Below are positions 2,877-35,216 of a DNA stretch of 42,118 bases, in pieces (within the stretch, counting starts at the first letter, position 1; each line of letters opens with the position of its first letter). The notes under the pieces are model-generated. The model had not been told where the DNA came from and did no database searches. It worked only from the letters and a program-made list of their open reading frames with translations. The stretch covers positions 1 to 42,118 of the forward strand of contig DROJ01000092.1 in assembly GCA_011321935.1 (NCBI GenBank), read 5' to 3'. This stretch comes from Bacteroidota bacterium (GTDB taxonomy: Bacteria > Bacteroidota > Bacteroidia > Chitinophagales > Saprospiraceae). The translations under genes and the position numbers were made by a program.

Positions 2877-3587
2877 ATGTTTTTGTTTTTTGCAAATGAG
2901 ATCAACGGTACGACGGCCACTTTTGGCGAAGCGGAAAGCAGGCATTGCATCCATGTGCTGCGCAAAGGGGCGGGCGATGAAGTCCATTTTACCGACGGCA
3001 AAGGTGGCTGGTATGTTGGCGTGATTTTGCGGGCGAACAAAAAAGGTTTTTCAGCCAAAATCATTTCCCAAAAACTGGAATACGGGAGGCCTGCCTTCCA
3101 CCTCCACGTCGGCATTGCGCCCACCAAAAACATAGACCGTTTTGAGTGGTTTTTGGAGAAGGCGACCGAGTTTGGCATTTCGGAAATCACGCCGCTGCAC
3201 TGCTCCAACTCGGAGCGGAAAAGGATCAGGCCGGAGCGGCTGGAAAAGGTTTTGCTCGCAGCCATGAAGCAGTCGCTGAAAGCCTATCTGCCGAAGCTGA
3301 ACGAGCTGTGCAGCTTTGAAGGTTTTATGGAAAAAACTGCAACCGATAGCCCGGCCAACCGTTTCATCGCCCACTGCCGCAACGGGCAATTGCCGCACCT
3401 GAAAGACAACTACCTCGCGGGAAATGACGTTGTGGTACTGGTCGGCCCGGAAGGCGATTTTTCGAAAGAAGAAATAAGCCTCGCTGCGCAAAAAGGGTAT
3501 TCGCCGGTCAGTTTGGGCAATGCCCGGCTGAGGACGGAGACGGCGGGCATCGCAGCCGTGCATATCATAAACCTGGCAAACCACTGA
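2877..3587 (+). CDS. rsmE: 16S rRNA (uracil1498-N3)-methyltransferase RsmE
   Basis: MFLFFANEI...ESRHCIHVLRKGAGDEVHFTDGKGGWYVG; C-terminal VLVGPEGDFSKEEI and SLGNARLRTETAG (SPOUT fold). Confidence 0.93.
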   Translation: MFLFFANEINGTTATFGEAESRHCIHVLRKGAGDEVHFTDGKGGWYVGVILRANKKGFSAKIISQKLEYGRPAFHLHVGIAPTKNIDRFEWFLEKATEFGISEITPLHCSNSERKRIRPERLEKVLLAAMKQSLKAYLPKLNELCSFEGFMEKTATDSPANRFIAHCRNGQLPHLKDNYLAGNDVVVLVGPEGDFSKEEISLAAQKGYSPVSLGNARLRTETAGIAAVHIINLANH

Positions 3588-28053: not shown

Positions 28054-30474
28054 ATGCCAACAAACAGGACATCCCTTTTTTCTTTTTTGAAAAAACACAA
28101 ATGGGGAGCAGCCATTTTGCTGGCCGTCCTTTTTCTGTTTTATTGGTTCTGCCTGCCCGACCCACTTTTCAAAGACCCTACCTGCCTTGTTTTGGAAGCC
28201 AATGACGGCAGCTTGCTCGGAGCGCAGATAGCTGCGGACGGGCAGTGGCGTTTCCCCCTCATCAAAGATGTTCCGCTGAAGTTTGAAAAAGCCATTTTGG
28301 CTTTTGAAGACAAACGTTTTTACTCCCATCCCGGCGTGGACTTGCTGGCATTGGGCAGGGCGTTCCGCCAAAATATAAAAAACGGAAAAGTGGTCAGCGG
28401 GGGCAGTACCTTGACCATGCAGGTCATCCGCTTGGCGAGGAAAGGGCAACGCAGGACGGTCTTTGAAAAAGCAATCGAAATGGTCTTGGCCACGAGGCTG
28501 GAACTGCGTTTTTCCAAAAAAGAAATTTTGGCGCTCTATGCCTCCTATGCCCCCTTCGGCGGCAATGTGGTGGGGCTGGAAACGGCCACTTGGAGGTACT
28601 TTGGCAAGCGGCCAAGCTCCCTTTCTTGGGCAGAGGCGGCCACCCTCGCAGTGCTGCCCAACAACCCCTCCATGATCCACCCCGCAAGGAACCGGGATGC
28701 ACTGAAAAGAAAAAGGAACCGCTTGCTCAAAAAACTTTTCGAGGAAGGAGTTTTTGATGAATTAAGCTATGAACTGGCGCTGGAAGAGCTGCTTCCCGGC
28801 AAGCCCCTCCCCCTTCCGAGGCTTGCCCCGCACCTGATGGACAGGGTGGCAAAAGAAAAAAAGAAGCAGCCCGAAATGGCCGGGAACAAAGTGCGGACAA
28901 CCATTGACAAAGCACTGCAAGAAAAGGTGAACCAACTGGTTGACCGCAAAAACAAGGCACTGAAAAACAACGAAATACACAACCTCGCAGCAATCATCAT
29001 CAATATTGAAAAAAACGAAGTCTTGGCCTATGTCGGCAATGCCCAAAACACGGGCGCCGAACACGGCAACTCGGTTGACATCATCACTGCCCCGCGCAGC
29101 ACGGGCAGCATCCTGAAACCTTTTCTTTATGCCATGATGATGCAGGAGGGAAAGCTGCTGCCCAAAAGCCTCGTCAACGACATACCCACCCAACTGAAAA
29201 GCTATCGGCCTGAAAATTACTCCAATACTTACGACGGCGTGGTGGCTGCCGACCGGGCACTTTCGAGGTCGCTGAACATCCCCTTCGTGCGGATGCTGCA
29301 AGAGTACAGCGTCGAGAAATTCCATTTTAATTTAAAAAAACTTGGCATCACGACTTTGCGCAATGCCCCCGTCCACTATGGCCTCACGTTGATACTCGGC
29401 GGCTCGGAAGCAACGCTTTGGGACTTGACCAGTATCTACGCGGGCATGTCCCGCAGGCTCTCCAATTTTTACCCAAACAATGGCTGGTACTCGGAAAGCG
29501 ATTTTACAAAACCGATTTTTTATATAAACCCCAAATCTGGTATTTCACAAAAAAAAGAGCTGTCGAAGGAAACCAAATACCTCACTGCCGATGCCATTTG
29601 GCTGACTTTCGAGGCCATGAAAAAAGTGGAGCGGCCCAACTCGCAAGGCGACTGGCAACGCTTTGAATCATCCCACCAGATTGCTTGGAAAACAGGTACG
29701 AGCTATGGCTTCCGCGATGCCTGGGCCATTGGCGTGACCCCAAAATATGCAGTCGGCGTATGGGCCGGCAATGCAGACGGAGAAGGCAGGTCGGGGCTGG
29801 TGGGCATCTATTCTGCCGCTCCTCTTTTGTTTGAAATATTCGACCTGCTGCCTACTTCGAGGTGGTTCGACCAGCCCTTTGATGCCATGAAGCAGGTGGC
29901 CGTTTGCCATCAGAGCGGCTATTTGGCAAAAGATATTTGTGAAGAAAAAGATACCATCTGGGCGGCCAAAAATGCCTTGAAGGCCCCTGCCTGCCCTTAC
30001 CACCGGTTGGTTCACCTCGACAAAAGCGAAAGTTTTCAGGTGAATAAAAATTGCGTTCCGCAAAATGAAATCACCGCCCGCCCCTGGTTTGTGCTGCCGC
30101 CTGTGGAGGAGTATTATTTTAAAATAAAACACCCCAACTACCGCAGCTTGCCCCCCGTAAGAGAGGGCTGCCAAACTGGCCAATCGGCCAATGCCAATCC
30201 CATGCAGTTGATCTATCCGGGCAACAACACAAAAATTTATGTGCCTACCGACCTTGACGGGAACGTGGGGCGGACTGTTTTCAAGGCAGCCCACCGCTTT
30301 GCAGGGGCAACGATCCATTGGCACATTGACAGGGAATACATCGGCAGCACTACGGACTTCCATAACATGGAACTCAACCCTCCTGCCGGACGGCATTCAT
30401 TGACCCTCGTGGATGACCGGGGCAACCGATTGATGCAAGCCTTTGAAATTTTATTGAAAGAAGGAGGGAAGTGA
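28054..30474 (+). CDS. pbpC: Penicillin-binding protein 1C
   Basis: ILAFEDKRFYSHPGVDLLALGRAFRQN...GGSTLTMQVIRLAR; transpeptidase STGSILKPFLYAMM and KTGTSYGFRDAWAIG; C-terminal BiPBP-like domain. Confidence 0.95.
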   Translation: MPTNRTSLFSFLKKHKWGAAILLAVLFLFYWFCLPDPLFKDPTCLVLEANDGSLLGAQIAADGQWRFPLIKDVPLKFEKAILAFEDKRFYSHPGVDLLALGRAFRQNIKNGKVVSGGSTLTMQVIRLARKGQRRTVFEKAIEMVLATRLELRFSKKEILALYASYAPFGGNVVGLETATWRYFGKRPSSLSWAEAATLAVLPNNPSMIHPARNRDALKRKRNRLLKKLFEEGVFDELSYELALEELLPGKPLPLPRLAPHLMDRVAKEKKKQPEMAGNKVRTTIDKALQEKVNQLVDRKNKALKNNEIHNLAAIIINIEKNEVLAYVGNAQNTGAEHGNSVDIITAPRSTGSILKPFLYAMMMQEGKLLPKSLVNDIPTQLKSYRPENYSNTYDGVVAADRALSRSLNIPFVRMLQEYSVEKFHFNLKKLGITTLRNAPVHYGLTLILGGSEATLWDLTSIYAGMSRRLSNFYPNNGWYSESDFTKPIFYINPKSGISQKKELSKETKYLTADAIWLTFEAMKKVERPNSQGDWQRFESSHQIAWKTGTSYGFRDAWAIGVTPKYAVGVWAGNADGEGRSGLVGIYSAAPLLFEIFDLLPTSRWFDQPFDAMKQVAVCHQSGYLAKDICEEKDTIWAAKNALKAPACPYHRLVHLDKSESFQVNKNCVPQNEITARPWFVLPPVEEYYFKIKHPNYRSLPPVREGCQTGQSANANPMQLIYPGNNTKIYVPTDLDGNVGRTVFKAAHRFAGATIHWHIDREYIGSTTDFHNMELNPPAGRHSLTLVDDRGNRLMQAFEILLKEGGK

Positions 30475-30700: not shown

Positions 30701-30784
30701 AAAAAAACTCCTACATCGGGGAGGCTAAAAAGCTGACGTAGGAGCACTAAACATACTATGAGAAAACTACACAGTGCAAAGAAG
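30701..30784 (-). ncRNA. Putative short structured transcript, paralog 1 (ends in intrinsic terminator)
   Basis: - strand CTTCTTTG...GTAGTTTTCTCATAGTATGTTTAGTGCTCCTACGTCAGC...GATGTAGGAGTTTTTTT. Confidence 0.45.
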
Positions 30785-30819
30785 GGCCAATTTTAGGTGT
30801 AAAAAAAGCGGTGATTAGG

Positions 30820-30847
30820 AAACGGTAGGTCTTGAACCGTGAACGGT
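30820..30847 (-). promoter_or_regulatory. Candidate LytTR operator: two direct repeats 21 bp apart
   Basis: - strand cctACCGTTcac...cctACCGTTtcc; aaacgg at 30820 and gaacgg at 30841 on + strand. Confidence 0.5.
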
Positions 30848-31162
30848 AGGAAGTATTTAGGATGTGGATTTATCATTATGTGTTCTGCGCAAAATACCAC
30901 CAAAACCCCATAACCAACTGATTTTTAATTATTAAAAAATATATTTATTTTTAATAAAAAGAAAATCTGGCATAGAATTGGGCTAAGGCTTCGTGTTCTT
31001 CGATGATTTTCTTGCACCAACTCACACATTTTTCCATTTTCCTTCTTACAGTTCCCACATTTCAAAATTCCAGAACAAAGGCTTTCCTTCAATCGGCAAT
31101 CCGCTTTTTATAGTCGGAATAAAATTCGGTTTAAAAAAAATTTGAACGGGTCAAGAATGGGT

Positions 31163-31245
31163 AAAAAAAAAATTCCTACACCCCAGAAGGGAAGAAAAGG
31201 TGTAGGAGAATTAAACATACTATGAGAAAACTTAGGCCAAAGATA
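31163..31245 (-). ncRNA. Putative short structured transcript, paralog 2
   Basis: - strand TATCTTTGGCCTAAGTTTTCTCATAGTATGTTTAATTCTCCTACACCTTTTCTTCCCTTCTGGGGTGTAGGAATTTTTTTTT. Confidence 0.5.
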
Positions 31246-31300
31246 CACTTGGCTTTTACAGGAAAAAAGCTACTTTTACGCAATGGTTGATCTGGTGAGG

Positions 31301-31349
31301 AAACGGTAGGTATTCTTTAGGAAACGGTAGGTTTTGACTAATAAACGGA
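31301..31349 (-). promoter_or_regulatory. Candidate LytTR operator: three half-sites at exact 21-bp spacing
   Basis: + strand aaacgg at 31301, 31322 and 31343; - strand TCCGTTTAT / ACCGTTTCC / ACCGTTTCC. Confidence 0.55.
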
Positions 31350-31477
31350 AAAAATATGTTTAAAAATTAATTTTATTGGAAATACATAAATACCGGAGGG
31401 CTATTCATTTACGGAAGCACTAAACTTACTACATAAAACAGCTTTAAACTACACCGCCTTTTTGAGAAAACATTTTA

Positions 31478-31533
31478 GGGAGTTTGTAATAAATAACTTC
31501 GCCATAACGGGTAGGTTATTTATTACAAACTCC
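31478..31533. repeat. 20-bp perfect inverted repeat
   Basis: gggagtttgtaataaataac / gttatttattacaaactccc. Confidence 0.9.
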
Positions 31534-31550
31534 CTTAAATTTTGAGGGGA

Positions 31551-31634
31551 AAAAAAAGTCCTGCACCCCAGGAGGGAAAAATAAGGTGCAGGAAGATTAA
31601 ACAAACATACTATGAGAAAACTAGGGCAAAGATA
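31551..31634 (-). ncRNA. Putative short structured transcript, paralog 3
   Basis: - strand TATCTTTGCCCTAGTTTTCTCATAGTATGTTTGTTTAATCTTCCTGCACCTTATTTTTCCCTCCTGGGGTGCAGGACTTTTTTTT. Confidence 0.5.
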
Positions 31635-34400: not shown

Positions 34401-35216
34401 TTACAGTCCTTCTTCCAGCCTGCGCATCTGCTCCATGAAAGCAGGGCGGCGGCGCCTTGATACTTCGATTTTTTTCCCGTCGTCCATTATCAGGTAACCC
34501 CCATCGCCTTTAATGAACTTTCTCATATAGTTGAGGTTGATAACGTGCCGTTTGTGCACCCTGTAGAAGTTCACGCTGGCAAGCATGTCTTCATAGGCTT
34601 TGATGGTTTTTGAGGCCGTGATCCGTTCTTTGTTTTGCAGAAAAATATGGGTGTAATTGTCTTCTGCCTCAAAGCGCACAATGTCCTTGATGCTGACGAA
34701 ATAGATACCGTCAATGGCCGAAATGCTCATTTTTTCAAAAGCGTTCGGGTTTCTCAATTGCTTGTTGAAAATTTCGATCCGTTGCCCCATTTTTTCGGAA
34801 CGGGTCACCCGTACCCTGCTCACCGCTTGGATCAGTTCATCGGGGTCAATGGGTTTGAGGATGTAACCTATCGAGCTGTACTCACATGCTTTGATCGCAT
34901 GTTCGTTGTAGGCAGTAATGAATACGATTTCGAAATTGACGGGCCTAAGCTGGTCGAGCATTTTAAATACAAGGCCGTCGGGCAAGCTGATGTCGAGGAA
35001 GGCAATGTCGGGCTGAAAAGCCGGGTCTTCAAAGAGTTCGAGCGCCTCTTCAATGTTCAAAGCATCTCCAATAAGCTCAACTTCTGGACAATGTTTGCGA
35101 AGCAAGTTCTTGATGTTGTTCATGCTTCTAATCTCGTCTTCGACTATGATTGCCTTTACCACAGAAGTGCTTTTTGTACGTGTGATCGTTTTGATTGGTA
35201 CATGTTGTAAGACCAT
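34401..35216 (-). CDS. LytTR-family response regulator
   Basis: REC domain (VKAIIVEDEIRSMNNIKNLL...IAFLDISLPDG...YILKPIDPDEL) plus LytTR DNA-binding domain (IVRFEAEDNYTHIFLQ...FYRVHKRHVINLNYMRKF). Confidence 0.95.
   Translation of the reverse strand: MVLQHVPIKTITRTKSTSVVKAIIVEDEIRSMNNIKNLLRKHCPEVELIGDALNIEEALELFEDPAFQPDIAFLDISLPDGLVFKMLDQLRPVNFEIVFITAYNEHAIKACEYSSIGYILKPIDPDELIQAVSRVRVTRSEKMGQRIEIFNKQLRNPNAFEKMSISAIDGIYFVSIKDIVRFEAEDNYTHIFLQNKERITASKTIKAYEDMLASVNFYRVHKRHVINLNYMRKFIKGDGGYLIMDDGKKIEVSRRRRPAFMEQMRRLEEGL

Follow-up and report, generated by a model that had tools for sequence, protein, structure and literature searches.

A multicopy small-RNA family in Saprospiraceae, its probable control by a LytTR response regulator and its candidate surface-adhesin targets

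The window analysed here, a stretch of 42,118 nucleotides from a Bacteroidota bacterium of the family Saprospiraceae, harbors on its minus strand a TPR histidine kinase (PF06580; 31732..33603) and a response regulator with a receiver and a LytTR DNA-binding domain (PF00072 + PF04397, both over the Pfam cut-off; 34401..35216). Three short units lie between the kinase and penicillin-binding protein 1C (PBP1C; 28054..30474, plus strand), which is a conserved syntenic neighbor on their other side. A preliminary description of this DNA had placed both open reading frames correctly and had called the kinase LytS-type. Pfam detects TPR and the histidine kinase domain (PF06580) in the protein but no LytS-type membrane sensor domain, so the term is a loose one.

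All three units are read on the minus strand and show, in this order, a -7 promoter box, the invariant sequence AGTTTTCTCATAGTATGTTT, a hairpin and a T-run. Unit 3 (type A; 31550..31622) begins with AGTTTTCTCATAGTATGTTTGTTTAAT at its 5' end, continues into a terminator hairpin and T-run, and is preceded by the box TATCTTTG (31627..31634, minus strand). The same box, TATCTTTG (31238..31245, minus strand), precedes unit 2 (type B; 31163..31232), in which the invariant 5' stretch is followed by a CCTACACC/GGTGTAGG hairpin and a T-run. Likewise, unit 1 (type C; 30701..30768) combines this stretch with a CTCCTACGTC/GATGTAGGAG hairpin and a T-run downstream of the box CTTCTTTG (30777..30784, minus strand). 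The predicted product is an sRNA of ~70 nt, starting 5-9 nt after TANNTTTG, with an invariant, putatively single-stranded 5' end of 20 nt and an intrinsic terminator hairpin. We dropped the notion of operator-dependent promoters without a -33 box, as unit 3, too, has no consensus -33 element at normal spacing. Between units 2 and 3 (31469-31543) lies a palindromic element, AGGGAGTTTGTAATAAATAAC...GTTATTTATTACAAACTCCCT, which recurs in many contigs, often in opposed pairs ~130 bp apart, and resembles REP/REPIN-type or MITE-like repeats.

These units belong to a larger family. At up to one mismatch, we found the 19-mer core of the seed in 50 of 150 relatives, mostly as two to four tandem copies; the reversed control gave no hit. 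Nearly all of these genomes are from the window's own family, the lone outsider being a single one-mismatch hit (G146), and the records with type-C units are labelled as Saprospiraceae or Bacteroidetes/Bacteroidota MAGs. Between PBP1C and the kinase, the order of cassette types A, B and C is constant. The terminator stem shows two-sided compensatory changes in four of its eight predicted pairs, and the loops keep CCUCC/CCCUUCU motifs. The units are thus paralogs in which an intrinsic terminator follows a conserved, unstructured seed, as expected of a multicopy family of base-pairing sRNAs. This family is new, in that it has no Rfam match: at the gathering threshold, the window yields tRNA only and the target loci yield nothing. 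Our literature search retrieved neither work on Saprospiraceae sRNAs nor work on LytTR-sRNA systems in Bacteroidota. An extra member is found just downstream of hemD at 12 loci of the genus and in a second genus (L266). At one contig downstream of hemD (L144, G000:C572, 1-640), there are also tandem ~190-bp repeats with CATAGTATGTTTGTTTGAAGCCCCGG hairpins. Downstream of genes unrelated to one another, L175 and L179 carry a variant motif, TTTTCTCATAGACTGTTT, together with a hairpin and T-run, possibly another branch of the family.

Upstream of units 1 and 2, the window contains phased direct repeats. On the plus strand, aaacgg occurs at 31301, 31322 and 31343 on the unit 2 side, and aaacgg (30820) and gaacgg (30841) on the unit 1 side. 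On the minus strand, the array of unit 2 (31299..31349) accordingly reads TCCGTTTAT (31341-31349), ACCGTTTCC (31320-31328) and ACCGTTTCC (31299-31307) in exact 21-bp steps, and that of unit 1 (30818..30847) reads ACCGTTCAC (30839-30847) and ACCGTTTCC (30818-30826), again 21 bp apart. Unit 2 has a degenerate fourth element, ACCATTGCG (31279..31287, minus strand), in a promoter-proximal position 20 bp from the next element; its counterpart in relatives is conserved as CCA-TGCGTAAA. No operator array is present upstream of unit 3 (31550-31622). One element matches the LytTR consensus [TA][AC][CA]GTTN[AG][TG] at 9/9 positions and the others at 7-8/9, positions 8-9 usually being CC. The preliminary description had reported these repeats, their 21-bp steps and their consensus scores, together with their location upstream of two sRNA-like units beside a kinase/LytTR pair, and in all of this it agrees with the sequence.

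This spacing follows the rule for LytTR operators, in which direct repeats of ~9 bp lie 10-13 bp apart and are bound about two helical turns from one another (PMC11347149). AgrA binds near -60 (PMC4227749), and VirR boxes require helical phase (PMC2838878). The entire 6.74-Mb genome contains a single exact pair ACCGTTTCC-N12-ACCGTTTCC. In relatives, the stretches preceding 42 units of types B and C contain 33 pairs of ACCGTT-like elements with 21-bp spacing (0.08 expected from shuffles), and the same spacing analysis revealed no fixed operator site for type A and hemD-linked units. Across 77 cassette units, operator 13-mers like ACCGTTNCCTAAA fall at -84/-83 (37), -63/-62 (29) and -42/-41 (32) relative to the -7 box and are almost absent elsewhere. 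Judged by sequence, these three fixed positions are how an activator array would be arranged along one DNA face.

The distribution of the components across genomes connects the arrays with the neighboring regulator. Full-length kinase orthologs are encoded in 36 of 52 genomes of the family, and the sRNA core is found in 34 of these 36, including unlinked cases, as opposed to 0 of 16 genomes that lack the kinase. For the unselected run G015-G051, the corresponding figures are 19/20 and 0/16. The co-occurrence tests treat related genomes as independent, so that their p-values overstate independence. In one complete kinase-positive genome (G019), no seed match was found. Almost every kinase-positive genome searched has an ortholog of the regulator (44-73% identity), also where its gene is separate from that of the kinase, while kinase-negative genomes have only paralogs of at most 41% identity. 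G040 and G042 are borderline cases at 42%. The operator motif behaves likewise: in kinase-positive genomes, pattern searches returned 101 sites (reversed control, 21), and in kinase-negative ones 3 (reversed control, 13). The PBP1C-sRNA-HK-RR synteny is kept in most of the genomes fetched, and kinase, regulator and seed co-occur even when they lie on different contigs; we argue that such unlinked retention reflects a functional bond. The preliminary description had proposed the LytTR protein as regulator of the small transcripts, and had named the absence of the phased motif beside orthologous kinase/LytTR pairs as evidence that would speak against it. The opposite is found, the motif being located at the PBP1C-sRNA-HK-RR loci of most relatives. 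Comparative evidence thus gives good support to the proposal, and with it to the assignment of the unit 1 and unit 2 operators as putative sites through which the neighboring regulator would control the sRNAs. Not every copy would be under its control, since the type A unit 3 has no operator in the genus. The hemD-linked member, the candidate mRNA targets and the wider regulon go beyond the preliminary description.

What might these RNAs act on? The 14-mer seed complement CATACTATGAGAAA is repeated in all 29 genomes searched and has no reversed-control hits. Outside the units, its recurrent sites precede genes for large secreted proteins by a few hundred bases. In three genera, namely the window's own, with its own genome included (L177), and two others (G014, G029), the genes behind such leaders encode HYR proteins (PF02494), as identified by Pfam in proteins of G000, G003, G005, G008, G011, G014 and G029. 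Two genomes (G003, G008) carry two tandem HYR genes with one site each, as well as a PKD-type secreted protein after a seed-complement site. In the window's own genome, the predicted duplex of unit 1 with the HYR leader reaches -31.1 kcal/mol, compared with a mean of -12.0 and a minimum of -20.0 in 200 shuffles. Within the genus HYR leader, a TTTCTCA segment is predicted to pair with a TGAGAAA of the leader itself, forming an internal helix that the sRNA could displace. The long F leader was found only in the genus, with a strict pattern that missed variants with one A fewer. As judged from sequence alone, the HYR leaders are preceded by a TTGGCAC-type, sigma54-like element, the -12 half of which is imperfect. 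HYR genes are probably common in the family, and several other seed-complement sites lie at unrelated start codons or in intergenic places. We rejected targets near SusC/RagA starts, as seed complements with up to three mismatches in the own genome were confined to the units and the hemD-linked unit. In several genus genomes (L181, L184, L186), a 112-aa ArsR-like gene has a start-codon region, AAACATAATATGAGAAAG, that is nearly complementary to the seed. A type-A unit in G025 (L270) has an ACCGTT operator and is divergent from an rpoN (sigma54)-like gene.

We consider it probable that these parts form one circuit, in which a multicopy sRNA family, switched on by the LytTR regulator, controls HYR surface-adhesin mRNAs by pairing. 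The TPR histidine kinase and the LytTR response regulator would constitute a two-component system. The binding sites of the regulator would be two to four direct repeats with the consensus ACCGTTYCCTAAA and a period of 21 bp, all on one DNA face and at constant distances from the -7 box on its upstream side; from there, the regulator would activate the sRNA promoters. The 5' end of the sRNA would then pair with the 5' leaders of giant HYR-domain surface-protein mRNAs and alter their expression; repression by pairing seems a little more probable than activation, which would come from opening the leader's own hairpin. From the observed sequence features, conservation, phasing, co-occurrence and complementarity, we infer DNA binding, activation, transcription, and target regulation with its sign.

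Other readings of the locus fit the data less well. Simple-sequence drift could be suspected in a genome rich in 7-8-bp tandem repeats, given a window full of short-period repeats and a period of 21, a multiple of 7; yet the operator repeats are not tandem heptamers and are held at fixed promoter positions across many genera, so that the chance of this is negligible. It is also very improbable that the units are short plus-strand peptide genes (ATGAGAAAACT = MRKL...) with a hairpin leader rather than minus-strand sRNAs. The plus strand does read AAACATACTATGAGAAAACT, a plausible start context, but the ORFs over the units range from 5 to 41 codons and have no relation beyond MRKL, for which reason we rejected this reading, and the minus strand fits the -7 boxes and T-runs in nearly all units. 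Whether the operators serve the neighboring LytTR protein, or a different regulator with that protein as a bystander, is a more substantial question, as related genomes encode many LytTR paralogs, the repeats match the LytTR consensus at only 7-9 of 9 positions, and in several genomes the regulator gene lies away from the kinase or the sRNAs. However, direct repeats in two-turn phase are what LytTR proteins are known to use (PMC11347149), the adjacency is kept in most genomes, and the operators follow the presence of kinase and regulator from genome to genome; a different regulator is therefore improbable.

The family and its LytTR control might also be real while its main partner is something other than the HYR leader: the 5' end could chiefly be a protein-binding site or act on other mRNAs, or the RNA could work via its C-rich hairpin loop. 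In the FopS sRNAs of Bacteroides, RbpB binds a conserved 5' stretch (PMC11697453), and in our family the 5' 20 nt are conserved far beyond the usual need of pairing alone, the CCUCC/CCCUUCU loop motifs are retained, and long seed-complementary leaders were recovered from only a part of the family. By contrast, exact seed complements precede HYR genes in three genera within leaders that are otherwise little alike, with no reversed-control hits and with duplex energies far beyond those of shuffles, which makes a different main partner unlikely and argues for HYR leaders as targets.

Beyond the sRNA family, the motif precedes further genes and RNAs, which are leads rather than established members of the regulon. 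In genus genomes, it lies before a ~470-aa TPR gene (contig C171 in the own genome). Units of operator, promoter, hairpin and T-run with other sequences (L234 and L235 in G001, L238 in G009) are candidates for further small RNAs of the regulon. The L234 unit includes ATAGTATCAGT, a complement of the second HYR leader (L192 2089). At L237, L240, L241 and L242, the operator is followed by a partly conserved ncRNA of ~130 nt with a terminator-like hairpin and then by variable genes, one encoding a SIR2 defence protein and another having a weak TIR-effector match. In the own genome (G000:C219, L247), three 21-bp-phased ACCGTTCCC repeats near 3058-3108 lie upstream of cas6b/csm1 (type III-A), between these genes and the CRISPR array, and CRISPR-Cas control by the same LytTR regulator is possible. 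We set aside hits in a glycosyltransferase ORF (L232, L243, L246, L248), which recur because the protein segment FLNQNYRSF is conserved. A rather doubtful, broader reading is that one LytTR two-component system runs a wide RNA-centred regulon. Small RNAs of several unrelated types would belong to it, along with a TPR protein and, in a subset of genomes, antiphage modules (the type III-A CRISPR operon here and the ncRNA with the SIR2 gene in a relative), and the main sRNA family would remodel the long, structured leaders of giant surface proteins by displacing an internal seed copy (TTTCTCA), which pairs with TGAGAAA in the leader.

What is known of small-RNA regulation in Bacteroidota stems mostly from gut Bacteroides, and for the most part the regulators that turn on these RNAs have yet to be identified. 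Saprospiraceae, in turn, are known here almost only from environmental metagenomes. In the present case, sequence suffices to recognize the sensor, the regulator, the operators, the sRNAs and the candidate target mRNAs, which together would make up a complete, testable circuit from a sensed signal to surface adhesins.

Parallels exist outside the phylum, for instance in Listeria, whose LisR is not known to be a LytTR regulator. The LisRK-LhrC1-5-LapB system is among the closest working analogues, albeit from another phylum; LhrC pairs via redundant CU-rich sites, whereas the Saprospiraceae sRNAs would use one invariant 5' stretch (PMC4132741). VirSR-VR-RNA of Clostridium perfringens (PMC2838878) and AgrA-RNAIII of Staphylococcus (PMC4227749) are equally close to the proposed circuit: in both, a LytTR regulator that binds phased direct repeats ahead of the promoter drives a regulatory RNA. 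VR-RNA and RNAIII are, however, single longer RNAs rather than several short paralogs, and the Saprospiraceae operators differ in sequence and have up to three or four repeats. Three direct repeats with two-turn spacing (18-21 bp) also characterize the CoxC/RcoM operators, but these serve CO-responsive one-component regulators instead of a kinase/regulator pair, and CoxC represses (PMC11347149). Within the phylum, FopS/GibS of Bacteroides come closest, a likeness judged by description: they are multicopy, share a 5' seed, have Bacteroidota-type promoters and target surface-protein mRNAs (PMC11697453). FopS has 14 loci in Bacteroidaceae, acts near susC start codons and has no known transcriptional regulator in that work, while the Saprospiraceae units come as tandem copies, with a linked LytTR system and candidate targets in far-upstream leaders.
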